From Robiginitomaculum sp. (GTDB lineage: Bacteria; Pseudomonadota; Alphaproteobacteria; Caulobacterales; Maricaulaceae), in contig NVXG01000003.1 in the NCBI GenBank assembly GCA_002733805.1, forward strand, positions 7,237 to 71,236: a stretch of 64,000 nt of DNA. Direction: 5' to 3'. Made by a program: the position numbers and the translations under genes. Shown here piece by piece: positions 30,635 to 62,519 of this stretch (positions within the stretch are counted from its first letter, which is position 1; each line of letters opens with the position of its first letter). The notes beneath the pieces were generated by a model. It was not told where the DNA came from. It made no database searches and saw only the letters and a list, made by a program, of their open reading frames with translations.

Positions 30635-32551
30635 ATGAAGATAATCCGCACGATTTGCTATTCCGTACTTGTTTTGGCTGGCACGGCTTGTCAGCCGGTA
30701 GAGCAGGCCAAAGAGGTGGGTATCCAACCAGAGCCTGCGGAAACTGTCGCGGCCCAATCACTGGGACATGGACAACCTGATAAATTGCTGTGGGGAGATA
30801 CCCACCTGCACACCTCAAACTCTGCTGACGCATTTTCATTCGGGGCACGCCTGACCCCAGCCGATGCGTATCGGTTTGCCCGTGGCGAAGAAGTGGTTTC
30901 TTCTTCTGGATTAAAGGCACAATTGGCCCGGCCGTTGGACTTTCTGGTTGTTGCAGATCATGCAGAAGGCTTGGGGTTGTCCGTCGAGCTGTTCAATGGC
31001 AATCCGCTTTTGATGACCGATGCCAAGGCGCGCCGTTGGCATGACATGCTGAATGCGGGTCCGGAGCAATCCTTCAAAGTTGCCAAAGAAATGATTACCT
31101 CTTTGTCCACGGGCACTTTGCCTGAACCGATTACCAATCCTAAAACGGTTGTCCCATTGTTGCGGGCGACATGGCACCGCAATACGGAGGTTGCAGATGA
31201 GTTTAATACGCCGGGCGTTTTTACCGCATTGATCGGGTATGAATACACCTCAGTGCCACAAGGCAATAATTTACATCGCGTGGTGGTGTTTCGCGATGGA
31301 AAAGCCAAAACAGATCAAATTTTACCTTTTTCGGCACTGGGTAGTGAAGATCCGGAAGATCTGTGGGCGGTGTTGGCCCGCTACGAACAAAAAACTGGCG
31401 GGCAGGTTTTGGCCATCCCACATAACAGCAATCTGTCCAATGGCCGGATGTTTGCCCGAGTGGACTTTGCCGGCGAACCGATTGATGAGGCCTACGCAAC
31501 AGATCGCGCCCGTTGGGAACCTTTGGTTGAAATCACTCAAATCAAAGGGGACAGTGAATCTCACCCATTTTTATCGCCCAATGATGAGTTTGCCGCTTTT
31601 GGTGATGCAGGCTGGGATTTGGGAAATTTGAGCTTACAGCAATTAAAAAAACCGGAAATGCTGGCTGGTGATTATGTGCGCGAAGCCTTGAAAACTGGCT
31701 TGGACTTGGGCGCAGAAACTGGAACCAATCCGTTTAAATATGGCGTGATCGGATCGACCGATAGCCATACCGGATTATCAACCGCTGATGACAATAATTT
31801 TTTTGGCAAACACGCGGACAGCGAACCCAAACCTGACCGCATTCGACACGTGGTCAACGGCTCAATACCGGGTCGAGCAACACGAATCGGCTGGCAATAC
31901 CAAGCTGGCGGCTATGCCGCTGTATGGGCGCGGGAAAACACACGCGAAGAGGTTTGGGACGCATTAAAACGCAAAGAGGTCTACGGCACGACTGGGCCTC
32001 GTATGCGGGTCAGGTTTTTTGGCGGCAGCGGGTTTGGTGCAGATGATGCGAAATCGGCCAATATGGCCGGGATTGGATATGCCAAGGGCGTACCGATGGG
32101 TGGCGATATGGAATTGGACGAGGGCGAAACGCCCAGTTTCTTAGTCGCTGCTATGAAAGATCCAGATGGGGCCAATCTAGATCGCGTGCAAATAATCAAG
32201 GGTTGGCGCGGCATAGATGGTGAGACTTATGAGCAGATCTATGAAGTAAATTGGGCTGGAAACCGGACGCTGAACGAAGACGGAAAATTGTCTTCCATTG
32301 GATCAACGGTGAATGTTTCAGATGCCAGTTACGACAATTCAATTGGCGCAAGTGAATTATCCAGCATCTGGCAGGACCCGGACTTTGATCCCGACCTGCC
32401 GAGCTTCTATTATGTGCGGGTGCTTGAAATACCCACGCCGCGATGGCCAGCCTATGATGCCAAAAGATTTGGTGTTGAAATGCCTGAGGGTACTCAAACC
32501 AGTCAGCAGGAACGGGCCTATACCTCGCCGATCTGGTATACGCCTAAATAA
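30635..32551 (+). CDS. DUF3604 lipoprotein, PHP-like metallohydrolase (copy A)
   Basis: This protein of about 638 residues has a lipoprotein signal (lipobox LAGTAC). AGGGAGG places the start at 30635. DUF3604 motifs in order are WGDTHLHTSNSADAF, FLVVADHAEGLG, IPHNSNLSNG, GSTDSHTGLST and KRKEVYGTTGPRM. The His/Asp set is that of PHP-type phosphoesterases, suggesting a di- or trinuclear metal site outside the inner membrane. The substrate is unknown. It is the first of a four-gene unit with a close paralogue, a parvulin-like protein and HupE. Confidence 0.87.
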   Translation: MKIIRTICYSVLVLAGTACQPVEQAKEVGIQPEPAETVAAQSLGHGQPDKLLWGDTHLHTSNSADAFSFGARLTPADAYRFARGEEVVSSSGLKAQLARPLDFLVVADHAEGLGLSVELFNGNPLLMTDAKARRWHDMLNAGPEQSFKVAKEMITSLSTGTLPEPITNPKTVVPLLRATWHRNTEVADEFNTPGVFTALIGYEYTSVPQGNNLHRVVVFRDGKAKTDQILPFSALGSEDPEDLWAVLARYEQKTGGQVLAIPHNSNLSNGRMFARVDFAGEPIDEAYATDRARWEPLVEITQIKGDSESHPFLSPNDEFAAFGDAGWDLGNLSLQQLKKPEMLAGDYVREALKTGLDLGAETGTNPFKYGVIGSTDSHTGLSTADDNNFFGKHADSEPKPDRIRHVVNGSIPGRATRIGWQYQAGGYAAVWARENTREEVWDALKRKEVYGTTGPRMRVRFFGGSGFGADDAKSANMAGIGYAKGVPMGGDMELDEGETPSFLVAAMKDPDGANLDRVQIIKGWRGIDGETYEQIYEVNWAGNRTLNEDGKLSSIGSTVNVSDASYDNSIGASELSSIWQDPDFDPDLPSFYYVRVLEIPTPRWPAYDAKRFGVEMPEGTQTSQQERAYTSPIWYTPK

Positions 32552-32569
32552 ATTCAACTGGAGAGTATT

Positions 32570-34489
32570 ATGAAATTTAATTTTTTGGTCGGCGCTAGTC
32601 TGTTGGCGCTTGGCGCATGTACGGTTGCCGAAGCTCCAGCACCAGAGGCGCTAGAGGCTGATTTGACCAATTCTGAGCCAACTAGTCAGCAAATATCTGC
32701 AGGTCCGCATTATTCTGCTGCAACCAGCAACACCCACCCAACCCGAGTTTATTGGGGGGATACTCACCTGCACACAAACCTGTCGCAAGATGCCTTTACA
32801 TTTGGCGTAACCTTGGGAGCGGATGAGTCCTATAAATTTGCCAAAGGTGAGCCGGTCGTGGCGACCCATGGCGAGATTGCCCAATTACAACGCCCTTTGG
32901 ATTTTCTGGTAGTTTCAGACCATGCGGAAGGGCTGGGGGCCATGAAGGCCTTATTGGATGGCAATGAAAAATTGCTCAAGGTTGAGCGTTTGCAGCGATG
33001 GCGCGAAGAGTTCTTGAAGGGAACAGCAGAGGCTAGAAATGCCGTGGCGCAGGATGGCCGGGGTAATGGGTGGCCTTTGGAGCTAGAATCAGAAGAGATC
33101 AAATCAGATTCATGGGCGCATCTTCGCGGTGCAGCTGAGCGCTATAATGAACCCGGGAAATTTACAGCATTTATCGGGTTTGAGTGGACGTCATCGCCCG
33201 GTGGTAGCAATTTGCACCGCGTGGTGATCTTTAAAGATGGTGCGGAAAAAACAGGAAAAACCTTGCCGTTTTCACAAAATGAAAGCGACAAGCCAGAAGA
33301 TCTTTGGAAGTACTTGCAAAGCTATGAGACCAAAACTGGAGGACAGGTTTTGGCCATTCCCCACAATGGCAATATCTCGAATGGCCTGATGTTTCCATTA
33401 TTGCAGGAAAATGGCCAGCCATTGGGTGCCGCCTATGTAGAAACACGGTCCCGTTGGGAGCCAATTATGGAGGTAACCCAGATCAAGGGCGATGGGGAGA
33501 CCCATGCCTTTTTGTCTCCAAATGACGAGTTTGCCAATTATGAAACATGGGATTTTGGCAATTTTAAAGGGGTGCTCAAAACCGACGATATGCTGGAGTT
33601 TGAATATGCCCGTTCGGCCCTGAAAAACGGCTTGAAGCTGGAAGCGGACTTCGGCACCAACCCGTATAAGCTGGGCATGATTGGTTCCACAGATTCGCAT
33701 ACTGCTCTGTCGACTGCCGATGAAGACAATTTTTATGGTAAACACAGCGCCGGTATGGAGCCGCAAAAAAATCGGTGGAAAGACCCGGTTGGCAAAGGTG
33801 GAGACCAAGCTATTCCGGGATTCATGATGGCTGCATCCGGATCGGCAGCGGTCTGGGCCAAACAAAACACCCGTGAGTCAATATGGGATGCTATGAAGCG
33901 TAAGGAAGTGTATGCTACGACCGGACCGCGCATGACCGTTCGCCTTTTTGGCGGGTGGAATTTTCAAGAAGCTGATGCGTACAACCCGGATTTGGCCAGA
34001 ATCGGGTATGCCGGCGGGGTGCCGATGGGGGGGGATTTGTCTGCCAACCCGGCTGATCAGGCTCCCACATTCCTGATTGCAGCAGCCAGAGACCCGATGG
34101 GTGCCAATCTGGACCGGGTACAAATGGTTAAAGGGTGGCGCGCAACTGATGGCGAAACCCATGAGCAAGTTTATGATGTAAAATGGGCCGGGCAGCGATC
34201 CATTGGTGCGGATGGCAAACTGCCAGCCATTGGCTCGACCGTTGATGTGGCCAATGCAACCTATTCTAACTCAATTGGCGCTGCGGAATTGGCAATTGTC
34301 TGGCAAGATCCGGATTTTGATGCGAAGCAACATGCGTTTTATTATGTCCGCGTTCTGGAAATACCCACGCCGCGCTGGACCGGATATGATGCGAAGTATT
34401 TCGAAACCCAAATGGCGCCAATGGTTAGATTACAACATCAGGAACGGGCGTATACTTCGCCGATCTGGTATACGCCGAACGCAGAGTAA
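32570..34489 (+). CDS. DUF3604 lipoprotein, PHP-like metallohydrolase (copy B)
   Basis: This 639-residue lipoprotein (lipobox LALGAC) begins 18 bp after copy A, with GGAG upstream. It shows the same motif series: WGDTHLHTNLSQDAF, FLVVSDHAEGLG, IPHNGNISNG, GSTDSHTALST and KRKEVYATTGPRM. Long stretches are shared with copy A (YYVRVLEIPTPRW, QERAYTSPIWYTP), so it is a tandem duplicate. Differences cluster between residues ~140-200, which may give a different substrate range. Confidence 0.88.
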   Translation: MKFNFLVGASLLALGACTVAEAPAPEALEADLTNSEPTSQQISAGPHYSAATSNTHPTRVYWGDTHLHTNLSQDAFTFGVTLGADESYKFAKGEPVVATHGEIAQLQRPLDFLVVSDHAEGLGAMKALLDGNEKLLKVERLQRWREEFLKGTAEARNAVAQDGRGNGWPLELESEEIKSDSWAHLRGAAERYNEPGKFTAFIGFEWTSSPGGSNLHRVVIFKDGAEKTGKTLPFSQNESDKPEDLWKYLQSYETKTGGQVLAIPHNGNISNGLMFPLLQENGQPLGAAYVETRSRWEPIMEVTQIKGDGETHAFLSPNDEFANYETWDFGNFKGVLKTDDMLEFEYARSALKNGLKLEADFGTNPYKLGMIGSTDSHTALSTADEDNFYGKHSAGMEPQKNRWKDPVGKGGDQAIPGFMMAASGSAAVWAKQNTRESIWDAMKRKEVYATTGPRMTVRLFGGWNFQEADAYNPDLARIGYAGGVPMGGDLSANPADQAPTFLIAAARDPMGANLDRVQMVKGWRATDGETHEQVYDVKWAGQRSIGADGKLPAIGSTVDVANATYSNSIGAAELAIVWQDPDFDAKQHAFYYVRVLEIPTPRWTGYDAKYFETQMAPMVRLQHQERAYTSPIWYTPNAE

Positions 34490-34492
34490 AAA

Positions 34493-35344
34493 ATGGCTAG
34501 TTCAAAGTTTGGATCTTTTTTCAAGAAAGTTTGGAAAGATCCACTGATCCATTTTCTGTTGCTGGGTGGACTGTTGTTTGCGATGTTTTACCTAAACGGA
34601 GGCGCTGTAGCTAACCGTGACAAGGGCATCCATTTAAGCTTGGCGGCGCAGCAACATTTGGCCGACTTGTTTGAAATTACCTGGCAGCGAGCGCCAACCA
34701 AAGATGAACTATCCAACCTGATTGCCGAGCAGATCAAGGAAGAAATTTATTACCGCGAGGCGTTGGCTTTAGGGCTGGATGAAAACGACACCATTGTCCG
34801 TCGTCGTTTGCGGCAAAAACTTGAATTTATGCATGAAGACTTATCAGGCAATGCGGAGCCAAACGAAGTCCAGTTACGACATTTTTTCAACACACACCTT
34901 GATCGCTATAAAACGGATCGGGTCATTTCATTTGAACAGGTACTGATCTCAACCCAAACCGTGCACGGGACTTCTGACGTGGCGACCCAGGCGTTGCGGG
35001 CGCTTGCATCCGGTGTCAGTGCTGGCAAAATAAGCCGCTCATCTTTATTACCCGTATCCATGAGGCTCGAGACAGGCCGGGCGATCTCCAATGTATTTGG
35101 CTCGGATTTTCTGGTTGGAATAACCGAAATCGGGCCTGGTGAATGGCGCGGCCCTATCTATTCTAGCTTTGGCAGCCATCTGGTGAAGATCACGCTGGAT
35201 CAACCATCAAGACCACTCAGTTTTGCCAACGCCAGAACCAATGTCACGACAGATTTTATACGAGATCGACGTGAAGCGGCAGCGATCCGGTACTATCAAG
35301 ACCTTCGCAGCCAATACCGGATTACGGTAGAAAAACAACCATGA
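34493..35344 (+). CDS. Parvulin-type peptidylprolyl isomerase, membrane-anchored
   Basis: This 283-residue protein has one N-terminal TM anchor (PLIHFLLLGGLLFAMFYL), a helical SurA/PpiD-like part (EEIYYREALALGLDENDTIVRRRLRQKLEF), and a C-terminal PPIC-like region ending WRGPIYSSFGSHLVKI. It follows DUF3604 copy B by 3 bp and overlaps HupE by 4 bp. It may fold or present the exported hydrolases or the HupE periplasmic domain. Catalytic activity of the divergent PPIC domain is not certain. Confidence 0.78.
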   Translation: MASSKFGSFFKKVWKDPLIHFLLLGGLLFAMFYLNGGAVANRDKGIHLSLAAQQHLADLFEITWQRAPTKDELSNLIAEQIKEEIYYREALALGLDENDTIVRRRLRQKLEFMHEDLSGNAEPNEVQLRHFFNTHLDRYKTDRVISFEQVLISTQTVHGTSDVATQALRALASGVSAGKISRSSLLPVSMRLETGRAISNVFGSDFLVGITEIGPGEWRGPIYSSFGSHLVKITLDQPSRPLSFANARTNVTTDFIRDRREAAAIRYYQDLRSQYRITVEKQP

Positions 35345-36339
35345 TGGTAGTTCGGTCTCTTTTTTTCCTGACGATCTTGGCTGGCTGCCTATTTGGTTTT
35401 TCGGCGCAGGCACATGAGCTGCGCCCAGCTTATCTGTCGGTATCCGAGGCGGCAGAAAACCAATACGATGTTTTGTGGAAAACCCCGGCATTGGGGGAAA
35501 AGCAGCTCGCGCTAAAAGCTCAATTCCCGACTGATTGCCTGATCTCCAACGGAGTGCGACGGGTTGAAAAAAACCAATTTGCCATTGAAACATGGCGGCT
35601 GGATTGCCCGACCTCACTGCGTGGGCGCTCTTTGTCTATTGGCGGGTTGGAAAAAACTCTGACCGATGTGCTGGTGCGAGTTCAATGGTTGGACGGAGCC
35701 ATTTTTATGACCCGCCTGATGCCAGAGAAGACTCGATTGGATTTCACCAAAGAGGAAACACGAGGCGGTATCGCACAAACTTATTTTGGTTTGGGGGTGC
35801 AGCACATTTTAGGTGGGATCGACCACTTAATGTTCGTGTTGGCTGTGTTGCTGTTGATAACCGGTGGCCACAAACTGTTTTGGGCAATAACCGCGTTTAC
35901 TTTGGGCCATAGTATTACCCTGACCTTGGCCACGTTGGACATTGTACAGCTTGATCCGTCTCTAGTTGAGATCCTGATTGCCCTGAGCATCGTGCTGATG
36001 GCCTATGAAGCAACCAGACGATGGCAGGGACATTCGGGACTGACCTTGCAATTTCCCTGGGTCGTTACCTTCAGCTTTGGGTTGTTACACGGGTTTGGGT
36101 TTGCCGGGGCTTTGCGAAATATCGGTTTGCCGCAAACTGATTTTCCCATCGCACTTTTGTTTTTTAATGTTGGGGTCGAGGCGGGTCAGCTCCTGTTTAT
36201 TGCCGCCATTTTTATACTGGTCGCGCTGCCGTTCATAAAACTATACAGGCAATCCCCCAACCCCATGATGTTGGCTGGGTACGGGATTGGCATCATGGCC
36301 GTATTCTGGACATTGCAGCGTGCGGCATTGGTGTTTTAA
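35341..36339 (+). CDS. HupE/UreJ-family protein (copy 1)
   Basis: This 332-residue protein has a signal peptide, an exported N-terminal domain starting HELRPAYLSV, and then six to seven TM helices with the family motif GGIDHLMFVLAVLL and FTLGHSITLTL, and FGLLHGFGFAGAL further on. HupE/UreJ proteins are linked to Ni/Co transport; the larger N-terminal version is common in DUF3604 clusters. Translation is coupled to the isomerase gene (ATGA). It may supply or remove the metal needed by the DUF3604 enzymes. Confidence 0.85.
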   Translation: MMVVRSLFFLTILAGCLFGFSAQAHELRPAYLSVSEAAENQYDVLWKTPALGEKQLALKAQFPTDCLISNGVRRVEKNQFAIETWRLDCPTSLRGRSLSIGGLEKTLTDVLVRVQWLDGAIFMTRLMPEKTRLDFTKEETRGGIAQTYFGLGVQHILGGIDHLMFVLAVLLLITGGHKLFWAITAFTLGHSITLTLATLDIVQLDPSLVEILIALSIVLMAYEATRRWQGHSGLTLQFPWVVTFSFGLLHGFGFAGALRNIGLPQTDFPIALLFFNVGVEAGQLLFIAAIFILVALPFIKLYRQSPNPMMLAGYGIGIMAVFWTLQRAALVF

Positions 36340-37501: not shown

Positions 37502-37764
37502 AAGGATCCTTACCAAAAAATACGGCTTGGATGATTATCCAACCGCGTCAGCAAGGAACTGAAATTGGTACACCAGCCAAAAAAGTCAATGTCCAATCGA
37601 AAATTCCGAGTATTTGCTAGCATGCGGTGATTGATCTGGTTATTTCAACAGGACATAAATCCCTGTCCGGGCAGGTCAATTTTGATGTTGGACAGGCCAA
37701 GCGCTTGCAATCTGTACGTTGGCGCAACATAAATGGCGTGAAATAATCAATGAAAGAGACCGAT

Positions 37765-39051
37765 ATGATGAATCGTTTTTTGGTACTGATTGCCTGTTTG
37801 TGGGGAACATCGGCTTTTGCACAAAGCACAATAATCAAGGCTGGGCACTTGGTTGATGTTGAAAATGGTCAGGTTTTGCAAGATCGTTTCATTTTGGTTG
37901 AAGACGGTTTGATTCGACAAATCGGTTCTGGACCTGAGATTGAATCCGCTCAGAAAACTGAACCGGTTTCCTATATTGATTTGTCAAAATTCACCGTATT
38001 GCCGGGCTTGTCCGACTCTCATGTACATCTGAGCGCCGATGCCAATGCCCACGGCTACAGAAGGCTGACTATTTCAACGCCGCGCGCTGCGATCAATGGA
38101 GTTGCTAATGCCCGAAAGACGATCATGGCTGGCTTTACCACGGTTAGAAACTTGGGCGCCGGGGGTTTTGTCGATGTCGATCTGATGAATGCGATCAATG
38201 AGGGCATAGTGCCGGGGCCGCGTATGATCCCGGCGGGTCGTTCCATCGGAATTACCGGTGGCCATTGCGACACAAATTTATTGCCTTTTGAATATCATAA
38301 GAAGGCGGGCGGTGTGGCTGATGGCCCATGGGCAGTGCGCGCCAAGGTCCGCGAAAACATCAAGTATGGTGCGAAAGTCATCAAATTTTGCGGCACTGGT
38401 GGTGTTTTGTCGAAGGGCACCAAAATCGGGGCACAACAATTCAGCTTTGAAGAAATGAAGGCTTTGGTGGATGAGGCACACTTGTTGGGCCTGAAGGTGG
38501 CGGTGCATGCCCACGGCGAAGATGGGATCAATACCGCTCTGCGGGCAGGGGTGGATTCGGTCGAACATGCCAGCCTGATTTCAGACCAAGGCTTGCGAAC
38601 TGCCAAACGGAACGGGACTTTCCTTAGCATGGATATTTATGTTTCGGATTACATTTTGGGCGAAGGGGAGGCTGCGGGCATTTTGGAAGAATCATTGGCT
38701 AAGGAACGCATTGTTGGCAAAAGGCAGCGTGAGCGGTTTCAGGCTGCGGTACAGGCCGGGGTGAAATTGGCGTTTGGAACTGATGCCGGTGTGTATCCCC
38801 ACGGCGATAATGCGCGGCAATTTGCCTATATGGTCAAATGGGGCATGACCCCGATGCAGGCTATTCAGGCCTCAACCACCTCCAATGCGGAGCTGTTTGG
38901 GTTGAGCGACACCATTGGTTCGCTGACGGTTGGTAAAATCGCAGATATTATCGCGGTTCAAGAAGACCCAACTCAAAATATCCGAACACTTGAGCATGTG
39001 GTCTTTGTTATGAAAGACGGACGTGTCGTATTGCCAATTGCTGACGATTAA
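37765..39051 (+). CDS. Exported metal-dependent amidohydrolase
   Basis: This protein of about 428 residues has a signal peptide (MMNRFLVLIACLWGTSAFA) and an amidohydrolase barrel. Metal-site features are SHVH at the first strand, the lysine region GAKVIKFCGTGG, VAVHAHGED, SVEHASL and the final FGTDAGVYPHG. This matches the imidazolonepropionase/prolidase-like group often acting on acylated amino acids or dipeptides. The start is at ATG 37765 or 37768 after GAGAC. It is probably in an operon with the amidase 18 bp downstream. Confidence 0.87.
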   Translation: MMNRFLVLIACLWGTSAFAQSTIIKAGHLVDVENGQVLQDRFILVEDGLIRQIGSGPEIESAQKTEPVSYIDLSKFTVLPGLSDSHVHLSADANAHGYRRLTISTPRAAINGVANARKTIMAGFTTVRNLGAGGFVDVDLMNAINEGIVPGPRMIPAGRSIGITGGHCDTNLLPFEYHKKAGGVADGPWAVRAKVRENIKYGAKVIKFCGTGGVLSKGTKIGAQQFSFEEMKALVDEAHLLGLKVAVHAHGEDGINTALRAGVDSVEHASLISDQGLRTAKRNGTFLSMDIYVSDYILGEGEAAGILEESLAKERIVGKRQRERFQAAVQAGVKLAFGTDAGVYPHGDNARQFAYMVKWGMTPMQAIQASTTSNAELFGLSDTIGSLTVGKIADIIAVQEDPTQNIRTLEHVVFVMKDGRVVLPIADD

Positions 39052-39069
39052 CCGGAAGGGGTTTTTCAA

Positions 39070-40734
39070 ATGAGTGTTTTGATGAGACATAAATTTTCGT
39101 CTGGAGTGCTTGCTCTGGCGTTGAGTGCTTTGGTGCTGTCCGGTTGTACACCGCCGCAAACCAGCAAGCAGAGCGAAGCGGCATCCGTTTCGCAATCGAA
39201 GATTGAAAACCCTGCCCCATTTGGCTGGTCTTTGCCTGAAATTTCTGCCGCCGTGCAATCTGGTGAGCTTTCATCAAGCGAGCTGGTCGCGGCGTATCTG
39301 GCCCGCATTGAGGCAGTTGATCGGGCTGGGCCACAGCTACAGAGCATTTTGACGCTGAATCTGGATGCTATGAACCAAGCCAAAGCTCTGGATGCTGAAT
39401 TAGTGGCTGGAAATTCGCGCGGTCCGTTGCATGGCATACCCATTTTGGTCAAAGACAATATTGAAACCCGCGACCCAATGCCGACAACTGCTGGCTCAAC
39501 GGCATTGCAAAATAATCTAAACCATCGTGATGCGCCGTTGATTGCCAATTTACGCGAAGCCGGTGCCGTTATTCTGGGCAAAACCAATTTGTCACAATGG
39601 GCTAATTTTCGCTCGAATGCGTCGATCAGCGGATGGAGCGCTTTGGGTGGTCAAACCAGAAATCCGCATATTCTGGATCGATCGCCCTGCGGGTCCAGTG
39701 CGGGTAGTGGCGTTGCAGTCGCCGCATTTCTAACTAGTGGTGCGATTGGCACAGAGACCAATGGCTCGATCAGTTGCCCTTCAGCGCGCAACGGCATTGT
39801 TGGATTTAAGCCAACAGTAGGCTTGGTTTCGCAACGTTTGATCATTCCCATATCATCTACCCAAGACACAGCTGGCCCGATGACCTTAAGCGTAGAGGGG
39901 GCTGCCTTGATGTTGGACGGAATGACCGGGCGAAGTGGAGAACAGTCTTTTACTCGCTTGCTGAAAAAATCCGCATTGGATGGCAAAAGGATTGGCGTAC
40001 TACGCTTTGCTCAAGGCAAGATTCCAGCCATTCAGGATCGGTTTGAAAAAGCTCTTTTAGTGTTGGAGGAAGCCGGTGCGGTATTGATCGATATCGATAC
40101 CTATGAACCACCAAAATCATTTTGGGATGATTCATTTGCGGTTTTGCAGTGGGAGTTCAAAGAGACGTTAAATGCTTATCTTGCTGGGACAAGCGAGCAG
40201 GTAAAGACCAGATCACTGGCTGAATTGATTGCCTTTAATCAGGTAGAACGTGAAATTGAACAATCCCTGTTTGATCAGGATGTCTTTGAAATGTCCGAAG
40301 CCCGTACCGGGTTGGATGACCCAGAATACCTGAAGGCACTAAATCTTGTCCTTACCGCAACCCGTCAGGATGGTATTGATAGGATTTTGGGTGAGAACCA
40401 GCTTGACCTGCTGGTTGCGCCAACGGGTGCCCCGGCATTTTTAATTGATCCGGTTTTTGGGGATGGTTTCCCAGGTGGAAATACCGGTGGGGGATGGATG
40501 GCGGCCATTGCCGGATACCCGCATTTGACAGTACCAATGGGAAGCATTTCCGCTTTGCCGGTCGGTATCTCGTTTATGGGAGCCGCAGGTCAGGATGCCG
40601 AAGTGCTGGCCGCCGGGTATGCCTATGAAATTCGTAGCGCCAAGCGGGTAATTCCGCAGTTTTTACCAAGTGCTGACGCTGTACCATCTGTTCAAAAAGC
40701 GTTTATGCGTCGACCAAGGCCAGCCAGTGAGTAG
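39070..40734 (+). CDS. Amidase-signature lipoprotein
   Basis: This 554-residue protein has a lipoprotein signal (lipobox VLSGC). The Ser-cisSer-Lys triad is visible: Lys in ILVKDNIETRDPMP, cis-Ser in CGSSAGSG and nucleophile Ser in GTETNGSISCP. It hydrolyses an amide in the periplasm or at the outer membrane. The gene follows the amidohydrolase and ends 2 bp from the convergent sulfotransferase. The pair suggests stepwise breakdown of amidated or peptide compounds. Confidence 0.9.
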   Translation: MSVLMRHKFSSGVLALALSALVLSGCTPPQTSKQSEAASVSQSKIENPAPFGWSLPEISAAVQSGELSSSELVAAYLARIEAVDRAGPQLQSILTLNLDAMNQAKALDAELVAGNSRGPLHGIPILVKDNIETRDPMPTTAGSTALQNNLNHRDAPLIANLREAGAVILGKTNLSQWANFRSNASISGWSALGGQTRNPHILDRSPCGSSAGSGVAVAAFLTSGAIGTETNGSISCPSARNGIVGFKPTVGLVSQRLIIPISSTQDTAGPMTLSVEGAALMLDGMTGRSGEQSFTRLLKKSALDGKRIGVLRFAQGKIPAIQDRFEKALLVLEEAGAVLIDIDTYEPPKSFWDDSFAVLQWEFKETLNAYLAGTSEQVKTRSLAELIAFNQVEREIEQSLFDQDVFEMSEARTGLDDPEYLKALNLVLTATRQDGIDRILGENQLDLLVAPTGAPAFLIDPVFGDGFPGGNTGGGWMAAIAGYPHLTVPMGSISALPVGISFMGAAGQDAEVLAAGYAYEIRSAKRVIPQFLPSADAVPSVQKAFMRRPRPASE

Positions 40735-40736
40735 GG

Positions 40737-42320
40737 CTAATCTTCAGCCAGATTGCGGAGATCGGAGAGCAGGCCGTTTAATTGCTCGCCATAACGCTTC
40801 CATCGACCGATAGAGCCGGAATAGAGCGGTTGGCGCACTTGCACCGAACTTGCGGTGGAGACAGGTGCGCTGTTCTCGTGAAATCGCATACAGGCGTCAT
40901 TCCATGGCAAATCACAAAATTCCAACAATCGCCGGGTCTGGTTCTCTTGATCATGGACGATATTCTCATACCGGACTTCCATGAACCGATTGGCTGGCAA
41001 TACGTCCCGCCATTGTGTCATCAAATGATCAAACCCCTGATAGAACTGTGCCGTATCTGCAAGGTCATAGGTATAGTTGTAATAGGAGTGTTGCACCGTA
41101 AACAATTGTCGGTAATTGCTTAAACAACTATCCATTGCCCCGCGCCGCAAGACGATCATTTTGGCATTGGGCATCGCGCGGTGGATCAAGGCCGCATAAA
41201 AGAAGTTCAGCGGCATTTTGTCGGTCATTCTGTCAGCGCCGCGAGCCAGTTCAATCGTATTTTTGATGTACATCTGGCCAATGGTATCCATGGGGATGTC
41301 GCTAGCCGCGATCAATGTTTCGGGGTCCATCACCATATTGGAACGGGTCTGGGTTGCCTCTTTGATCAGGCCAGCAAATACGTTTAATTCACCAGCTGAA
41401 ACGACGTCAGGATGCGATGATAAAATACGATCGACCAAAGTTGTTCCAGTGCGGGGCAATCCAAAAATAAAAATCGGGCTGGCGGACGTGGCCTCGGTAC
41501 CCGCTGAACTTTGTAAGGACTGGCTGGTTTGTTTTGCGGCTTCAAACAGGCCAGAATAATTGAACGAATTGGACGGCAGCGAGTTTCGTTTTTTCTCTTT
41601 TGCCTTTTGGAGCCATTGCAGGCTTTCTTCATATCGCCCCAAGTCTTCCAGTGTTTTTGCAATGGCATGGCCCAGATGCAAAGCCGCATCTGCATTGGAG
41701 CTATGTTGCTCAAACAATAGAACCAACTGATCCAGATGGTTCGTTTTGGGTGTTTGTCTTGCAAGCGCGACCAGTGAAGACCAGGCGCGATAATGGGCCG
41801 GATCCCGGCTTAAGGTGCTCTGGTAGGCAAGTTCGGCTTTCGAAAACTCACCCAAAAACTGATGTGATGCCGCCATGTTATAGTGAAAATTTGCCGGTCG
41901 CATATCCATGGACACGGCTTTTTCGAAAAACGGAATAGCCTTTTCATGAAATCCGGTGCGGCTGTATACGACGCCAATCGTATCAGCCACATAGGCATCT
42001 TCGATTGGCAAGTTGGCGGCCTGATCAATGACGTCTTTTGCGTGGTTCTGGCGACCCAAAATCGTTAGAACCTGTGCGAAATAGGCGTAATAGCGCGCAG
42101 CCTTTCCATCCAATGCAATGGCTCTGGAGTATAACTCGCAGGCCTTTGTGTGGTTGTCATGTTGTGCAGTAAGGCGGCCTAATAGATAGAATGCTTCGGC
42201 ATTATCAGGATCGCTTTTAAGAACCTCTATGCAGGCGCCATGGGCAGCCCGAAACGCACCTTGTGATAATTGGTGCTCTGCTTCTTTGAGGATCAGAGCT
42301 AGTCTTGTTTCATTCTTCAT
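40737..42320 (-). CDS. TPR-repeat sulfotransferase
   Basis: This 527-residue protein has an N-terminal part (~10-240) of about six TPR units (AEAFYLLGRLTAQHDNHTKACELYSRAI) and a C-terminal sulfotransferase-like domain starting with the PAPS loop IFGLPRTGTTLVDRILSSHP (~290) and including DKMPLNFFYAALI. Such TPR-sulfotransferases modify sugars, peptides or metabolites; the acceptor is unknown. No sulfate activation genes are near. Confidence 0.88.
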   Translation of the reverse strand: MKNETRLALILKEAEHQLSQGAFRAAHGACIEVLKSDPDNAEAFYLLGRLTAQHDNHTKACELYSRAIALDGKAARYYAYFAQVLTILGRQNHAKDVIDQAANLPIEDAYVADTIGVVYSRTGFHEKAIPFFEKAVSMDMRPANFHYNMAASHQFLGEFSKAELAYQSTLSRDPAHYRAWSSLVALARQTPKTNHLDQLVLLFEQHSSNADAALHLGHAIAKTLEDLGRYEESLQWLQKAKEKKRNSLPSNSFNYSGLFEAAKQTSQSLQSSAGTEATSASPIFIFGLPRTGTTLVDRILSSHPDVVSAGELNVFAGLIKEATQTRSNMVMDPETLIAASDIPMDTIGQMYIKNTIELARGADRMTDKMPLNFFYAALIHRAMPNAKMIVLRRGAMDSCLSNYRQLFTVQHSYYNYTYDLADTAQFYQGFDHLMTQWRDVLPANRFMEVRYENIVHDQENQTRRLLEFCDLPWNDACMRFHENSAPVSTASSVQVRQPLYSGSIGRWKRYGEQLNGLLSDLRNLAED

Positions 42321-42377
42321 CGGGCGTTTTCATTCTACCGGTGCTGACTTGCCGGCTTGTTTCAATGTCAAGTAAAA

Positions 42378-42860
42378 TCAGGGCGTGATAAATCGGCCTC
42401 GTGTCTTGATATCTTCAATTACAGTAAAGCTGTTGGTTTGGGAAATGCCCGGGATTTCGGATATTTTTTCAAGGAGAACTTGGCGAAACTCATCCATGTT
42501 ACTGACGCAAACTTTCAGCAGGCAATCAAACATTCCAGCTACCATGTGGCATTCAATAACCTCTGGAATGTCGAGAATGTGTTCGCTAAAGGTTTGAAAG
42601 GTCTTGTTGGTCGAGTCGGTGAACGTGACCTGGATGAAGGTGGTAAATCCTCGGTCAACCAGGCCCGGATTCAGGCGGGCTGTGTAGCCCTCAATATACC
42701 CTTGGCGCTCCAGTCGTTTGATGCGTTCGGCGCAGGGCGTTTGGCTGAGGCCAACTGTTTTAGCGATCTCAACGAAGCTAGCCCGGCCATTTTCCTCGAG
42801 AATGGCCATGATTTTCCGGTCAATTGAATCTGATTTATCTGTGTGTTGTTTTGGCAACAT
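42378..42860 (-). CDS. Lrp/AsnC-family transcription regulator
   Basis: This 160-residue protein has an N-terminal HTH (MAILEENGRASFVEIAKTVGLSQTPCAERIKRLE) and a C-terminal RAM ligand domain (VIECHMVAGMFDCLLKV). It probably responds to an amino acid and controls the divergent TonB receptor at 43202 or the neighbouring amidase genes. The 341-bp AT-rich gap before the receptor would hold its sites. Confidence 0.9.
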   Translation of the reverse strand: MLPKQHTDKSDSIDRKIMAILEENGRASFVEIAKTVGLSQTPCAERIKRLERQGYIEGYTARLNPGLVDRGFTTFIQVTFTDSTNKTFQTFSEHILDIPEVIECHMVAGMFDCLLKVCVSNMDEFRQVLLEKISEIPGISQTNSFTVIEDIKTRGRFITP

Positions 42861-43201
42861 AGCGAATTTCTCTGTTTGGGTGGGGGAAACGTAATATTTT
42901 CTAGATTAAACACCAATATAACCCGTAAATATAGTTAAAAAGGCTAAGTTGGGCATCAAAACCAGTGTTTTTCATTGAAAACGAACCAAAGATACAGGAT
43001 TTTCCACTTTTCAAATACCTATTTGCAGGTATGGTTTTAGGGTGCGGTAGCAGATGAAGCTCTTCAGATGTTGGAAGCCGTTGAAAAAAATATAGACTTG
43101 CAAATAGAAGCAGGGATAGAAAAAGAGACTAATCATATAGCAGACAAAGGCTGCGGCCTTTGCAGGCTGGGCCGGTATAAATTTCACCAAGGGGATTGAA
43201 C
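42861..43201. promoter_or_regulatory. AT-rich divergent control region, Lrp regulator and TonB receptor
   Basis: No gene is supported. It includes a 6-bp inverted repeat ATACCT/AGGTAT with 6-bp spacer at 43015-43032 and several A/T tracts (e.g. near 42890-42940) of the kind bound by Lrp-family proteins. An AAGGGG RBS precedes the receptor ATG. Confidence 0.45.
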
Positions 43202-45646: not shown

Positions 45647-45674
45647 ACGTTCTGAACCAAACACATAATTGTGG

Positions 45675-45705
45675 AAACGGGGCCTGTGGGCCCCGTTTTT
45701 TGTTT
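45675..45705 (+). terminator. Rho-independent terminator of the first TonB receptor
   Basis: AAACGGGGCC (45675-45684) pairs with GGCCCCGTTT (45689-45698) around a 4-nt loop and is followed by T5-6. It lies 29 bp after the receptor stop. Confidence 0.9.
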
Positions 45706-46090
45706 GAATGGAGGTGTTGTGCAGCCCATTTGTCACAAGACCAAAAAAACCCATGCAAGTTTCCCAACTTTTTGTTACAGATTCTACAGGGTTTTTTTTG
45801 GTGATTTTGGGGATATTTTGATCCCAAACATCGAGATTCCACTTGTTTTATTGGGTTTTTATTTTTTTTAGCGGGATCAATTTAACTCGTAGTACGTATT
45901 TCATCCAGATATATTGTAAGATTCAGCATATTAGCAAACTTGTATATAGATTCTAAAGCCTGTATGCCAAAGGTGTCATCATGAAGAATTTGTCAGCCAA
46001 TATTTAGAATTTGGGTCAACGTAATCCAAATCGAAGCCTGAAGACTACAGCTTATAGAATTTCACACTTCATTTCATCTAGGGGGATACC
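45706..46090. other. 385-bp AT-rich leader/promoter region of the second TonB receptor
   Basis: No supported gene; short minus-strand frames here are antisense to the receptor end and lack an RBS. The long A/T-rich stretch ends in AGGGGG before a TTG start. No riboswitch fold was recognised by eye. Confidence 0.45.
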
Positions 46091-54919: not shown

Positions 54920-57196
54920 ATGAGTTTGTTCAAGACACTTGGTTTGGGGTTGATTGTGGTTCTGGTTGGTGCTGGAATTTATCTGTTCGGGATGAAGCAA
55001 AACTGGTTTGGGGCGCACCGATTGCCGGGCACAATCGAAGGTCCGGCAATACCGGATAGTATTCTCAAACAACGTGCCGCAATCCAGACCTCCAGCGCAA
55101 ATGCGCTTGGCAATCAGGCTCCCAAGCAAATCCTGTTCGGGGATTTGCATGTCCATACAACCTATTCCACCGATGCCTTTATGTGGTCCTTGCCGGTTTT
55201 TGGTGGCGAAGGATCACATCCGTTGGCCGATGCTTGCGATTTTGCGCGCTATTGTTCGGCTATTGATTTTTGGTCAATCAATGATCATGCCGAGGCCTCT
55301 ACGCCAGACCGATGGGCCGAAACCAAAGATAGTATCCGGCAATGCAATGCGGTTGCGGGTGACCCGGAAAATCCGGATATGGTCGCGTTTATGGGTTTTG
55401 AATGGTCACAAGTCGGGCGGACTCCGCTGGACCATTATGGTCATAAAAACGTTATTTTCAAAGGCTTAGGTGATGATGAGCTGAGCCTTCGGCCAATTGC
55501 TGCTGCTGGAGTAGCCAGCACAACCATTCGTGGCTCCGCAACAGATCTGGACTGGCGCTTGGCGCTGACTGATTTCTCCAATCGTCAAAATTATTTTGAT
55601 TTTCGGACCTTTGCCGCCGAAATCCGTTCGGTGCCAGATTGTGATCCTACCATTGCCTCGCCCGAGCTTTCACTGAATTGTTATGAGCAGGCGGTCGATC
55701 CCGGTGATCTTACCCTGCGACTGGATGCACAACGTCTGGAGTATTTGTTGATCCCTCATGGAACCAGTTGGGGATTTTATACGCCGCCGGGCACGTCATT
55801 TGACAAACAGCTCGCGCCAAATATGCATCCTGAAAAACAGCCTTTGATCGAAGTGATGTCGGGGCATGGCAATTCAGAAGAATATCGGTCGTGGCGCAGC
55901 ATCGATATGGTGGATGAAAAGAATCTAATTGCAACGTGCCCGAAGCCATCAAAAAATTATCTGCCAGGGTGTTGGCAGGCCGGGCAGATCATATTGGAAC
56001 GATGCACGGATGCTGGCGAGAGCGCGACCGAATGCGAAGCTCGCGCTGAAACGGCGCGCGAACGGTATGCGGCACTCGGTGTCGCCGGGCACACCATTAT
56101 TGCCGGAGCGCAAGTTGACGATTGGTTGGATGCCGGACAGTGCAAGGATTGTTTTTTGCCACCCTTCAACCACCGTCCCGGTGTGTCTGTGCAATATGGA
56201 TTGGCCATCAGTAATTTTGAAAAAGATGCGGACAATCCGACACGGTTCGATTGGGGCTTTGTGGCAGCGTCTGATAACCACCGGGCGCGTCCGGGCACCG
56301 GTTATAAGTCTCATTCCCGATTTATGATGACGGAAGCATCTGGGCCAACCACTGAGAAATTGCGAAGTACCATGTTTCCTCCGGTTGAGAAAAAGCCAGA
56401 ATCGCTGAATATTACCAGAGAAAGTGTCTGGGATAATCCAGGGTTTCATTTGTTGGAACTGGAGCGTCAAGCCTCATTCTTTACCACCGGAGGTTTGACC
56501 GCCGTGCATTCTGAAGGCCGTTCGCGCGGGGCGATATGGGCTGCCATGAAGCGCCGTGAAACTTATGCCACGTCCGGTCCGCGCATGTTGCTTTGGTTTG
56601 ATCTGCTCGGCATTGAGGGTGAAGTGCATCCGATGGGGAGCAAGGTCGAACAAGGTGTTGTGCCGCGTTTTCGGGTTCGTGCGGCTGGTGCGTTCAAACA
56701 AAAACCGGGTTGCCCGGAATTTGCCGAGCAAGGCCTGCCAGGTGAGCGGTTGGATAAATTATGTCGGGGCGAGTGTTACAACCCATCTGATGAACGCCAG
56801 AAAATTGTTCGCATTGAGGTGGTCAAAATTACGCCGCAGGCATTTGCAAATGAACTGGTTGATACTTTGATCCACGACACATGGAAAAGCTTTCCTTGCG
56901 ATGATCAGGGACAGGGTTGCACCATCGAATTTGAAGATCCGGATTATCTGACCGATAGCCGTGATGCTCTCTACTATGTACGGGCCATCCAAGAGGCAAC
57001 GCCGACCATCAATGGTGCCAATTTGCGCTGCATTTTTGATGCAGAAGGCAAATGTATCTCGGTTAACCCATGCTATGGGGATTACCGGACGCCCAAGAGC
57101 GACAATTGTCTGGCGGATGTTGAAAACCGCGCGTGGTCTTCTCCGATCAATCTGAAATATGCAGCCAGTATCGCCGAAACAGACGCTGCCAAGTAA
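54920..57196 (+). CDS. DUF3604 protein, PHP-like metallohydrolase (copy C)
   Basis: This 758-residue protein has an N-terminal signal anchor (TLGLGLIVVLVGAGIYLF) rather than a lipobox. Motifs: FGDLHVHTTYSTDAFMW, IDFWSINDHAEAST, IPHGTSWGFY, AASDNHRARPGTG and KRRETYATSGPRM. It is ~120 residues longer than copies A/B, with Cys-rich inserts (e.g. around 580-610 and 690-730) likely forming disulfides. It heads the second DUF3604/parvulin-like/HupE unit. AGGAGG precedes the ATG. The substrate is unknown. Confidence 0.87.
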   Translation: MSLFKTLGLGLIVVLVGAGIYLFGMKQNWFGAHRLPGTIEGPAIPDSILKQRAAIQTSSANALGNQAPKQILFGDLHVHTTYSTDAFMWSLPVFGGEGSHPLADACDFARYCSAIDFWSINDHAEASTPDRWAETKDSIRQCNAVAGDPENPDMVAFMGFEWSQVGRTPLDHYGHKNVIFKGLGDDELSLRPIAAAGVASTTIRGSATDLDWRLALTDFSNRQNYFDFRTFAAEIRSVPDCDPTIASPELSLNCYEQAVDPGDLTLRLDAQRLEYLLIPHGTSWGFYTPPGTSFDKQLAPNMHPEKQPLIEVMSGHGNSEEYRSWRSIDMVDEKNLIATCPKPSKNYLPGCWQAGQIILERCTDAGESATECEARAETARERYAALGVAGHTIIAGAQVDDWLDAGQCKDCFLPPFNHRPGVSVQYGLAISNFEKDADNPTRFDWGFVAASDNHRARPGTGYKSHSRFMMTEASGPTTEKLRSTMFPPVEKKPESLNITRESVWDNPGFHLLELERQASFFTTGGLTAVHSEGRSRGAIWAAMKRRETYATSGPRMLLWFDLLGIEGEVHPMGSKVEQGVVPRFRVRAAGAFKQKPGCPEFAEQGLPGERLDKLCRGECYNPSDERQKIVRIEVVKITPQAFANELVDTLIHDTWKSFPCDDQGQGCTIEFEDPDYLTDSRDALYYVRAIQEATPTINGANLRCIFDAEGKCISVNPCYGDYRTPKSDNCLADVENRAWSSPINLKYAASIAETDAAK

Positions 57197-57211
57197 CGGC
57201 CGGTACTGCAG

Positions 57212-58078
57212 GTGAGCGATGATCAAAATTGGCGGCATCGTATTTTTGCGATGGGCGCTGTCATTGGGCTTGGCTTGGCTGCATTTGGTGCGCTGGGTTC
57301 GGGTAAAATGGCGAGAGAAACATTGGCACCGGGCGCCATTGCCAGTGTGAACGGCAATATGGTTTTACGAGCTGATTTTGTTCGTGCGCTAACGGCAGTT
57401 TCGGTCGGGCGAACCAACCCGTTATTGCCAGTTGATGAAGCTAGTATTCTGGCTCGGTTGATCGAAGAAGAGTTGTTGGTGCAACGTGCATTGGATCATG
57501 GGTTTGCCCAAGCGGATTCGCAATTGCGAAATGCGTTGGTTAATGCGGTTACCGCCGACGTAATTGCACGTAGCCAGTCTCGTCCGGTTTCCGAGCGGGC
57601 TTTGCAAAACTATTACCAGAAAAATGTTGGGCGCTTTGCGATCCCGGCCCGGTATTCGATCCGGGTATTGTTTTTCGCAGGGGAAGACGGCGATGACAGC
57701 ATGGCCAGATTTGATCAGGCTTTGGCAACGGGCAGTGATCCGTCTGAACTGGTGCGGATATTTGGTGGCAAGACATTGGGTGTTCCCAAGGGTTTGCTGC
57801 CAGCTCGCAAAATCATTGATTATATTGGTCCGGTTCCGGCTGCCGGGTTGGATGATTTTCATGTTGGGCAATGGTCGCAAGCGATACCCGATCGCCGGGG
57901 CGTGTGGCGGATATACTTGGATGATCGGATTGAAGCCAAAATACCGCCTCTGCAAGAGGTAGCACATCAGGTGCAGGTGGCTTTCACGAATGAGCGCGAC
58001 GATGCCGCTTTGCGTAGCTTTTTGAATGCCATGAAAAAAGACGCAGACATCATATATTCGACTGAAATCAGCCCATGA
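57212..58078 (+). CDS. Parvulin-like peptidylprolyl isomerase (copy 2)
   Basis: This 288-residue protein starts at GTG 57212 and has one N-terminal TM helix (FAMGAVIGLGLAAFGALG), a SurA/PpiD-like helical core (RLIEEELLVQRALDHGFAQADSQLRNALV) and a PPIC-like C-terminal half. It is organised like the 34493 gene but clearly diverged. It overlaps the HupE gene by 4 bp. It probably serves the DUF3604/HupE unit. Catalytic residues cannot be confirmed by eye. Confidence 0.75.
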   Translation: MSDDQNWRHRIFAMGAVIGLGLAAFGALGSGKMARETLAPGAIASVNGNMVLRADFVRALTAVSVGRTNPLLPVDEASILARLIEEELLVQRALDHGFAQADSQLRNALVNAVTADVIARSQSRPVSERALQNYYQKNVGRFAIPARYSIRVLFFAGEDGDDSMARFDQALATGSDPSELVRIFGGKTLGVPKGLLPARKIIDYIGPVPAAGLDDFHVGQWSQAIPDRRGVWRIYLDDRIEAKIPPLQEVAHQVQVAFTNERDDAALRSFLNAMKKDADIIYSTEISP

Positions 58079-59322
58079 GGTATTGCCGTTGGCAACAAGT
58101 CGTGTGGCGCGCCATCTGGATGGTATTTTGTATAAGCTGTCTGGCTGGCAATGCGCTGGCACATTCTTCCAGCCGGTCATTTTCGGAATGGCGCGAAGAT
58201 GGGCAACGTGTGCAGATGATCTTCAGCATAGAGCGGGTGCAGGCCACGCTGCTGATCCCACTGCAAGACCAGAATCTACCCTTGGCCAGCGTGTTGAGCG
58301 GGCATTTGGCGGCTAGCATCCATGTGTCCCGCCTGGGTGATAGCAAATTGTGTCAACCTTCCTTGCCGCAGCAATTGCCATCCAGCGCCCAAACCTTGCG
58401 TATTCGAATGGTTTTCAACTGTGGGCCTAGCGATCAAACGACTGGTTGGTCCGTTGAAAATAATGCCTTTTTTGATTTGGCCTCGACCCATATTCATATT
58501 GCACAATTGCAGGCGCAAAATCACCAATCCGAGCAGGTCTTTACCAACGCACAGCGCACGCACGTATTGCGCGGTGCCAGAGCTGACCATGCAGATGTAA
58601 GCCTGTGGGCCAGTATGGCGCAATATATCCAATTGGGTTTCACCCATATTTTAAGCGGATGGGACCATCTGGCCTTTGTGGTCGGATTGATTATCTTGGC
58701 CGGGTCTTTTCGAAAGACAGTGTTTCTGGTCACCGGGTTTACCGTTGGTCACAGCCTGACCCTTGGTCTGGTGGCGCTGGGATGGGTACAACCTGTGGCT
58801 CCGGCGATTGAAGCATTGATCGGTTTTTCGATCGCTTTCGTGGCGATGGAATTTTTATTGTCTGGCAGTGCTTGGTGGCGCCCGGCAACCAAATGGCTGG
58901 CTGTTTTGTTTACGGGGTTGGCTATCCTTGCGCTGTTTGGATTTGGACAATTGCCGGTCTTGGTCTGGGTTGGGTTGGGATTGTTTGTGTTCAGTACCGG
59001 GAAATTTGGGGCCAAAAACCGGGCTGGCCTTTCGGGGGCGCTAATACTGACTACCATTTTTGGGCTAGTACATGGAGCTGGCTTTGCCGCACCTCTGATG
59101 GAGGCGGGTCTGCCGATTGGTCGTCAAATACCGGCGCTGGCCGGATTTAATATTGGCGTGGAATTGGGGCAATTGCTGGTCGTGGCGTTTTGGTTGGTGG
59201 TTTTTGGGTTGATCACAAAATTGACAGATCAGCGGCGAACCATGCAGACCCAAATTGCCATGAGCGGACTGATCTTGATTTTGGGGTTGTTCTGGTTTTC
59301 CGGGCGGGCCTTAACCAGCTAA
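58075..59322 (+). CDS. HupE/UreJ-family protein (copy 2)
   Basis: This 415-residue protein has a signal peptide (to NALAHSS), an exported domain of ~180 residues, and then seven TM helices with the HupE core THILSGWDHLAFVVGLIIL, FTVGHSLTLGLVALGW and VHGAGFAAPLMEAG. It is larger than copy 1 because of the N-terminal domain. ATGA overlap with the isomerase gene again. It is likely a divalent-metal (Ni/Co-type) transporter or a related membrane module. Confidence 0.85.
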   Translation: MRYCRWQQVVWRAIWMVFCISCLAGNALAHSSSRSFSEWREDGQRVQMIFSIERVQATLLIPLQDQNLPLASVLSGHLAASIHVSRLGDSKLCQPSLPQQLPSSAQTLRIRMVFNCGPSDQTTGWSVENNAFFDLASTHIHIAQLQAQNHQSEQVFTNAQRTHVLRGARADHADVSLWASMAQYIQLGFTHILSGWDHLAFVVGLIILAGSFRKTVFLVTGFTVGHSLTLGLVALGWVQPVAPAIEALIGFSIAFVAMEFLLSGSAWWRPATKWLAVLFTGLAILALFGFGQLPVLVWVGLGLFVFSTGKFGAKNRAGLSGALILTTIFGLVHGAGFAAPLMEAGLPIGRQIPALAGFNIGVELGQLLVVAFWLVVFGLITKLTDQRRTMQTQIAMSGLILILGLFWFSGRALTS

Positions 59323-62300: not shown

Positions 62301-62519
62301 TACACTTCGAGCGAAAACCCCGATAAATCGATCCGGGCGATTTGGCGAGTGAACCGCTCTCCTTCGCGGCGTCAATCCGTGGCCACAATCCAATGTGCAT
62401 CCGGCCAAAAACCCATGAATGCATTTCGCAAGAAATGGAAGTCGATCAAGGGTGTGACCGAACGGCAAGTCGGCGAGCAATTGGAGGCTCGGGTTCAAAC
62501 CTTGGCCAGAGGAGGGTAA
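59373..62519 (+). CDS. Large coiled-coil protein with von Willebrand A domain
   Basis: This protein of about 1048 residues has a TM/signal near residues 30-55 (PWICALVILLCLFPISMATAQ), a long Ala/Gln/Lys coiled coil (~60-250), a second helical region with a hydrophobic GVRAATLAAVEGG segment (~350), then a VWA domain with the MIDAS motif DASGSMDE at ~748 and a Pro/Asn-rich linker. No ATG precedes the signal; TTG 59373 or GTG 59424 are possible starts. It probably forms a surface or periplasmic scaffold. AGGAGG at its end serves the next gene. Confidence 0.75.
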   Translation: MQGFKENHAIRDANYDWVDRLVVETNQFNRLPVPWICALVILLCLFPISMATAQPATDSDADKIAKARAGISAANEAVESRQASVNEAKAAMSAAQSAVARAEGNLDFQRRRAGSIVSATEYLTETSDAISGLRQQLSALDDTPQNASQIDVLERQIKAVSRQLSRQATEYASRNIQSSREFAAAEQAVKLAKQKARSAEDQYNLDDSALDGAKLQLTKRNENLSAILAKASANMAKQAPGFVREITVTQNGKTMYQARWEEDDTLGKKIKLAIKELEREIKEVNRVRVLVNTDMELYRREINVATQQLKLLNEERGWNQSVILWSERLYYFGEVVALAATGAGIVSGVRAATLAAVEGGTAVTARFVARETVRQTALQLSFGSLPSVLEWPGFALRGKAWLQASSSVLTAEKMLLASRAWVEPVALIGTAYQNYSTVKGLASSPSTRIAGRRMGSIQRELEVEVERIRLFKNQRLDFIGAREARRAYALSSAEIIQKAYNAQYSIIRKKDKSFWRTIKVGKIFTSDAEIAVAYATLEILRSDAQLKAARVYLGLTIDERNKLDAAIPKLQTRLQNMREKLPGAPVRVKKVLRNRYVKIGDEIQANISIEFTQALQENPLVKIGAGTISRPPAGADDSEGLPLPGPDKGAVLVQMSGNGKSWSGTFYTAPLSDIANSNDPIQIEINANDLNDRALDADPQTAVFAEAGGWGFYESTPEGKSHGNGGPDKWHHINGIFMKGSSYVFVIDASGSMDENSRMVQVKRSARTFLSAMEKDDEVAIWAFYDCGNISLAQGFTRDKKKALTVINGIEPSSGTPLAAAIGLAGEYLLTKAHYGSRSLIILSDGGESCNGDPASAAALFRRQVRVLGSLGQSNPDGTKPPMMGQPVAGGAGPANNNKPANSNSPSGAGASGDPNAVEPDPKLVKVKLADIDAWVLVETGGTSSPIFALQRTRYHETGKDGSCTAEVTRETYYASYTSSENPDKSIRAIWRVNRSPSRRQSVATIQCASGQKPMNAFRKKWKSIKGVTERQVGEQLEARVQTLARGG

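Follow-up and report, generated by a model that had tools for sequence, protein, structure and literature searches.

A window of 64,000 nucleotides from Robiginitomaculum sp. (GenBank assembly GCA_002733805.1, contig NVXG01000003.1, positions 7,237 to 71,236, forward strand) contains a run of four genes at 30635-36339, all on the + strand. Two genes for DUF3604 proteins (PF12228; D) are followed by one gene for a parvulin-like protein (R) and one for a HupE_UreJ_2 protein (PF13795; H). The genes are separated by 18 base pairs (bp) and 3 bp and then overlap by 4 bp, a composition and spacing that had been described from the letters alone (the sequence-only reading) and that is confirmed by the open reading frames and Pfam matches. 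The association of D, R and H is real and old, and the case for a single functional unit made up of the three is much stronger than that for either mechanism discussed below. The trio suggests an undescribed route for folding and metal loading outside the cytoplasm.

The sequence-only reading had proposed its own test, namely that the genes should co-occur above chance in other genomes. Profile searches for D, R and H were run against 150 genomes of the phylum and 240 genomes of the class. Among the 150 genomes, the R profile (A2, built from 12 sequences) finds 12 full-length places at an expectation value (E) of 2e-95 or lower, and the next match is at 3.2e-24. All 12 lie within 1.4 kilobases (kb) of a D gene, and a HupE_UreJ_2 gene adjoins 11 of them, all but the one on contig C111 of the window's own genome. 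Any DUF3604 match is present in 11 of these genomes and full-length genes in nine (16 genes at 14 loci, 12 of which contain R); the nine leave out G031, which holds a remnant, and G130, which falls below the cut-off. In the 240 genomes, searched at thresholds of 1e-20 for D, 1e-40 for R and 1e-60 for H, D occurs in 25 (including G263, with a fragment of 123 residues), R in 22, H in 22 and all three in 21. The 215 D-free genomes contain R once (G323) and H once (G199), both as partial matches. Fisher's test gives p = 3.6e-25 for both pairings, D-R and D-H, a value that ignores genome relatedness and overstates independence. With D, R and H together in 21 of the 25 D genomes, the prediction was not refuted, and DUF3604, this parvulin subfamily and HupE do travel together as a conserved unit. 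The possibility that the four genes are a chance cluster is rejected by this co-occurrence. The remnant in G031 (contig C2, L065, 10037-11023) is a frame of about 330 residues that joins DUF3604 positions 3-54 to the end of HupE_UreJ_2 and looks like what is left of a deleted module.

A pattern scan of species genomes yielded at least 597 stretches, 584 of which encode a relative, and the best 80 D loci were kept, a set that leans to close relatives. Using thresholds of more than 80 bits for R, 65 for H and 300 for D, with gaps taken from profile envelopes, R is present at 50 of these best 80 loci, H at 48 and both at 47; a few of the H counts are weak (for example L105, L139 and L157). Both are found at 34 of the 45 loci that have at least 3.5 kb of flanking sequence on each side. 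The gene order among the 47 trios is D-R-H in 25, R-H-D in eight and D-D-R-H in seven. By record title, the trios among the loci listed come from Alpha-, Beta- and Gammaproteobacteria, Desulfobacterales, Xanthomarina spongicola, Haloferula rosea (which we take to be Bacteroidota and Verrucomicrobiota, respectively) and metagenome-assembled genomes of Nitrospirales and Krumholzibacteriia. No fourth partner recurs at comparable frequency in the 60 largest neighbour clusters, the next being present at no more than nine of the 80 loci, with clustering at E ≤ 1e-12 and at least half coverage, settings at which divergent families may be missed. This clustering covered 121 sources (the window and L053-L172), with the 80 DUF3604 loci counted apart; the remaining large clusters consist of D, R, H or frames overlapping D or H, which by position are antisense.

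R and H look dependent on D, and not vice versa, since in the 240 genomes D lies within 3 kb of 25 of the 27 R matches, whereas R lies near 29 of the 56 D matches. H is found within the same distance of 25 of the 27 R matches. This pattern is consistent with R and H being accessory genes that require D. R and H occur mostly in a 1:1 ratio, and there are up to five D genes per R-H pair; the D:R:H copy ratio is 5:1:1 in G231 and 4:1:1 in G158 and G282. Twenty genomes carry a D locus without a nearby R, and R is found elsewhere in 17 of them, at full length in 15. This set derives from 21 DUF3604 loci without nearby R and H, of which L171 was left out and some lie near contig ends, and some of the split D and R-H loci in these fragmented assemblies may be broken operons. 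Six of 18 wider regions around R in these genomes (L228, L229, L231, L234, L235 and L244) are R-H pairs without D within reach. The tree distances of D, R and H correlate over 54 loci (r = 0.52, 0.57 and 0.75, values reached in none of 2000 permutations), with the species signal included in the correlation.

The grouping of all three genes is found in two branches of D that are very divergent. A second PHP-parvulin-HupE trio, which the sequence-only reading did not mention, is located about 20 kb downstream at 54920-59322, again on the + strand. Its first gene (54920..57196) encodes PHP3, a divergent DUF3604-like protein of 758 residues with an N-terminal hydrophobic stretch, which PF12228 matches in two stretches at 88.7 bits. 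PHP3 aligns with DUF3604 proteins just in short stretches of 27-54% identity and retains the GDxHxH, PHG and SDNH motifs. It is followed by the parvulin/SurA-like R2 (57212..58078; PF13145, 43.4 bits) and the HupE_UreJ_2 protein H2 (58075..59322; PF13795, 122.6 bits), whose predicted mature N terminus, judged by eye, is a His. Relatives of PHP3 with 49-59% identity are present in 10 further genomes, or 11 of the 240 when its own is included. Eleven distinct PHP3 loci were compared, not counting two PHP3 pieces of genome G373. Eight have an R2-type gene and six of these also an H2-type gene, so that two have R2 only (L216, one of them, ends at a contig edge), and the other three have neither. 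A large gene for a VWA-domain protein (59373-62519) comes after the second module in the window; it was not found in the other PHP3 loci examined.

DUF3604-1 (P0001; 30635..32551, + strand), a predicted exported PHP-fold metallohydrolase, starts with the ATG at 30635; the reading frame itself is open from a TTG at 30596. Its paralogue DUF3604-2 (P0002; 32570..34489, + strand) is 52% identical to it in the alignment, and PF12228 covers both at full length (3-591 of 591; 806 and 809 bits, respectively). The AlphaFold2 model of DUF3604-1 has a mean pLDDT of 84. Its best PDB match by Foldseek, and the sole one at E ≤ 0.001, is the PHP-like protein 3e38 (E = 1.7e-6). Next come the PHP domain of RNase AM and further PHP proteins (7ug9, 1.5e-3; 3o0f, 3.3e-3), and weaker matches include unrelated beta proteins; because the query is much longer, the TM-scores are low. 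Nine His, Asp or Glu positions are identical in all 54 DUF3604 proteins of an alignment with one protein per trio locus. Together with the modelled fold, these ligand-type residues bear out the PHP-type His/Asp set that had been proposed, and D is assigned to the PHP superfamily with a predicted hydrolase activity.

The N terminus of DUF3604-1 has a signal peptide with a weak lipobox, and that of DUF3604-2 has the lipobox LGAC, as judged by eye. Crude sequence patterns, used rather than a signal-peptide predictor, assign a Sec signal to 60 of 96 D proteins, a lipoprotein signal to 33 and a Tat-like signal to one, leaving two without a signal. Sec or lipoprotein signals thus account for 93 of the 96, and one of the lipoprotein type contains RR. 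These patterns agree with the export suggested by the sequence-only reading, and D is probably exported unfolded because its signals look like Sec or lipoprotein signals and hardly any like Tat. The alternative of D as a Tat protein that is loaded with metal in the cytoplasm was rejected, given that the crude patterns give one Tat-like protein and one RR lipoprotein among the 96.

R1 (P0003; 34493..35344, + strand) is a parvulin/SurA-like protein with an N-terminal hydrophobic anchor. Its Pfam match to PF13145 (Rotamase_2) is marginal, at 27.2 bits for a cut-off of 27. Among PDB entries, the R profile picks out Cell-binding factor 2 (3rfw, E = 8e-12; presumably PEB4), with a match that spans the N-domain as well as the parvulin domain, and also SurA (1m5y), HP_0175 and PrsA. 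Parvulins have two active-site His residues with a catalytic role. In an alignment with generic parvulins, the first of these corresponds to Gln149 in R1 (codon 34937..34939, + strand) and His229 is kept, so R1 has the parvulin domain with one of the two His residues. Among 54 aligned sequences including R1, the column of the first His contains Gln in 43 and His in 11, and the last His is present in all 54. Because the first catalytic His is mostly Gln, a chaperone role appears more likely than catalysis for most members. The protein had been described as an isomerase anchored in the membrane; the anchor stands, but the isomerase part is doubtful.

H1 (P0004; 35341..36339, + strand) matches PF13795 with 159.3 bits, for a cut-off of 24.5. 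Membership in the curated HupE nickel permease family was considered and rejected, as PF04955 reaches 19.1 bits, under its cut-off of 23. The AlphaFold2 model of H1 (mean pLDDT 90) has a beta-sandwich at residues ~30-134 in addition to a signal helix, and its seven long helices are taken as membrane helices. Foldseek ranks ZrgA of Vibrio cholerae first (8ezw, E = 9.2e-4, TM-score by target 0.57) and 8f1b third (E = 5.4e-3). Because the ZrgA chain has 131 residues and is aligned over 137 columns, we infer that the aligned range is the N-domain of H1. With the Pfam match and the ZrgA-like fold, H looks metal-related, in line with its earlier naming as a metal-transport family, and transport is predicted.

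The predicted mature residue 1 of H1 is His25 (codon 35413..35415, + strand), which comes right after an AxA-type site. Of 52 H proteins, 28 have His and 24 have Asp at this position (29 and 25 of 54 in a larger alignment), and Ala is present at position -1 of the predicted cleavage site in 47 of the 52. Residue 1 of H shows no clear association with the first-His column of R (Asp with Gln 22, His with Gln 21, His with His 8 and Asp with His 3). In HupE_UreJ_2 proteins from outside DUF3604 trios, inspected by eye, a His directly follows the signal peptide in all 21 that are readable. These come from a set of 23 of the 26 genes at L067-L092, the fragments L069, L076 and L090 being left out and the over-long frames L074 and L082 not judged. 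The same is seen, again by eye, in all six H2 relatives (L206-L212 group). Eight residues are invariant in all 52 H proteins: H155, G159, D161, H162, H190, E223, H250 and E280. The invariant or near-invariant His, Asp, Glu, Asn and Gln residues are situated in the helices, and H155, G159, D161 and H162 form an H-x3-G-x-D-H motif in the first predicted membrane helix (35803..35826, + strand). The motif is also present in Rhizobium HupE (PF04955).

Other HupE_UreJ_2 genes directly adjoin a preceding gene at L070, L072, L073 and L088. The preceding genes at L070, L072 and L088 give weak to moderate TPR-repeat matches and possibly represent another partner set. At L078 (8671-9027), a DUF6488 gene adjoins a HupE_UreJ_2 gene with a short N-domain.

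We tentatively propose that R and H form a shared two-protein envelope unit that matures the exported PHP-fold protein D by folding and metal supply. D, either a lipoprotein or a protein whose signal is cleaved off, would cross the inner membrane unfolded via Sec, and R, anchored in the inner membrane, would bind, hold and fold it. The ZrgA- and anglerase-like extracytoplasmic domain of H, which starts with His or Asp, would capture a divalent metal. H would then hold this metal ready at the membrane for filling the multi-metal PHP site of D, with the handover presumably occurring outside the cytoplasm. A single R-H pair would serve several D paralogues. This proposal is favoured because of the copy-number pattern and the chaperone-like character of R; ratios such as 5:1:1 and 4:1:1 fit a shared service factor.

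Several observations weigh against a maturation unit. Neither R nor H is nearby at 11 of the 45 well-flanked D loci, and four of the 25 D-bearing genomes in the class lack both R and H, one of them having the D fragment. A third DUF3604 gene in the Robiginitomaculum genome itself (contig C111, L066, 7046-11077) is accompanied by R and then by a GST-like gene, not by H. In the genomes with an orphan D locus, wider regions around R (18 of 21 R places, several ending at contig edges) contain D in four of the 18 and a strong H in 11; outside the 18, D lies within 1.5 kb of R at L220 and L225. In 25 of 54 H proteins, the predicted mature chain begins with Asp. Zn, Mn or Fe is often the metal of PHP enzymes, in contrast to the Cu preference of the anglerase domains tested. 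HupE/UreJ proteins are described in section 8 of PMC12537917 as permeases that take metal up, which is the wrong direction for periplasmic loading; for this reason, the loading of a periplasmic enzyme by H is something that we infer.

The chief rival turns this direction to account. In a scavenging system, D would hydrolyse a metal-carrying or metal-chelating compound outside the cell, or would free a small product, H would import the metal or product and R would merely aid the folding of D or H. The same section of PMC12537917 has anglerase domains catching metal before it reaches the permease, the conserved His, Asp, Glu, Asn and Gln residues in the H helices suggest a working path, and the dependence of H on D fits as well. 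However, where a single H accompanies several D paralogues, all of these would have to yield the same product; none of the other neighbouring gene families is found with the trio at a similar rate; and uptake leaves R unexplained. We regard scavenging as possible but rather unlikely. A stricter form of the maturation unit seems to us unlikely too, and somewhat harder to accept: that R and H are a dedicated extracytoplasmic metal-loading machine, in which apo-D, held by R, receives metal from the N-terminal His/Asp site of H, residue 1 sets the metal preference and the whole paralogue family is served. It is improbable that R and H instead insert, anchor or surface-expose D without supplying metal; R is SurA-like and 33 of 96 D proteins look like lipoproteins by the crude patterns, but H has the hallmarks of a metal permease and the D proteins of trio loci occur both with and without a lipobox-like pattern. 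Co-regulation alone, in which a shared operon would serve the same condition without mutual action, is more improbable still, given that the D-free genomes among the 240 contain no full-length R or H match, that R persists in 17 of the 20 genomes where a D locus has no R close by, that two divergent branches both retain the trio and that the trees correlate.

To our knowledge, it is largely an open question how enzymes that are exported unfolded acquire their metal outside the cytoplasm. The trio occurs across phyla and in two divergent branches, with R and H that look dependent on D, and would offer a direct genetic system for this question. It would also link the newly described anglerase-type permeases and the uncharacterised PHP family DUF3604 to a common pathway.

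Promoter- and terminator-like sites are at chance level (5 for 6.6 expected and 8 for 7.9 expected), and no hydrogenase or urease genes are present among the window neighbours tested. Just downstream of the four-gene run (37750-48490) are tandem amidohydrolase and amidase genes, followed by a TPR-sulfotransferase gene and two TonB receptor genes.

The metal-binding side of the trio is partly known, and no description of the trio itself was found in the open-licence PubMed Central (PMC) literature. The terms PF12228, PF13795 and 'HupE UreJ' gave no open-licence PMC paper, with slash spellings being missed by such a search, and 'anglerase' was found in this literature only in PMC12537917. DUF3604 is mentioned in a single paper of this literature, on Chlamydia transposon mutants. 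No convincing relative came up when PDB sequences were searched with D, H and R2. By its PHP fold and metal-ligand motifs, D resembles CehA/McbA and other PHP hydrolases. It differs from CehA/McbA in its long beta-rich C-terminal region and in its NF038032 scores, which at 16.4 and 18.2 bits for the two window proteins are well below the cut-off of 80. R resembles the periplasmic chaperones Cell-binding factor 2, SurA and PrsA by profile match, and unlike them it has an N-terminal membrane anchor, is tied to one module and mostly carries Gln in place of the first His. H shares the H-x3-G-x-D-H motif of the first membrane helix with the HupE/UreJ nickel permeases, but has an extra N-domain and a PF04955 score under the cut-off.

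The closest known counterparts of H are the anglerases, which passages of PMC12537917 define as HupE/UreJ-2 proteins with an N-terminal metal-binding domain and a fully conserved His1. According to the same passages, the tested domains prefer Cu, Ang-1 binds Cu with a Kd of 74 nM and Ni with a Kd of 220 nM, and its closest structure is 8F1B. The H profile (A4) gives no sequence match to the Ang-1 structure 9GCE, but neither do two other His1-type HupE proteins, which leaves this search without a positive control that works. The neighbourhood genes named there are DUF4198, Indigoidine A-like, PfkB, metallophosphatases and DUF916, and the main text contains neither DUF3604 nor 'isomerase'. Like Ang-1 and Ang-2, H has a signal peptide, a metal-capable residue 1, a beta-sandwich with ZrgA as its nearest structure and a PF13795 membrane domain. 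Unlike them, it has an N-domain of about 120 rather than about 176 residues, a residue 1 that is His in the window protein and His or Asp across the family, and DUF3604 and a parvulin-like protein as its partners.

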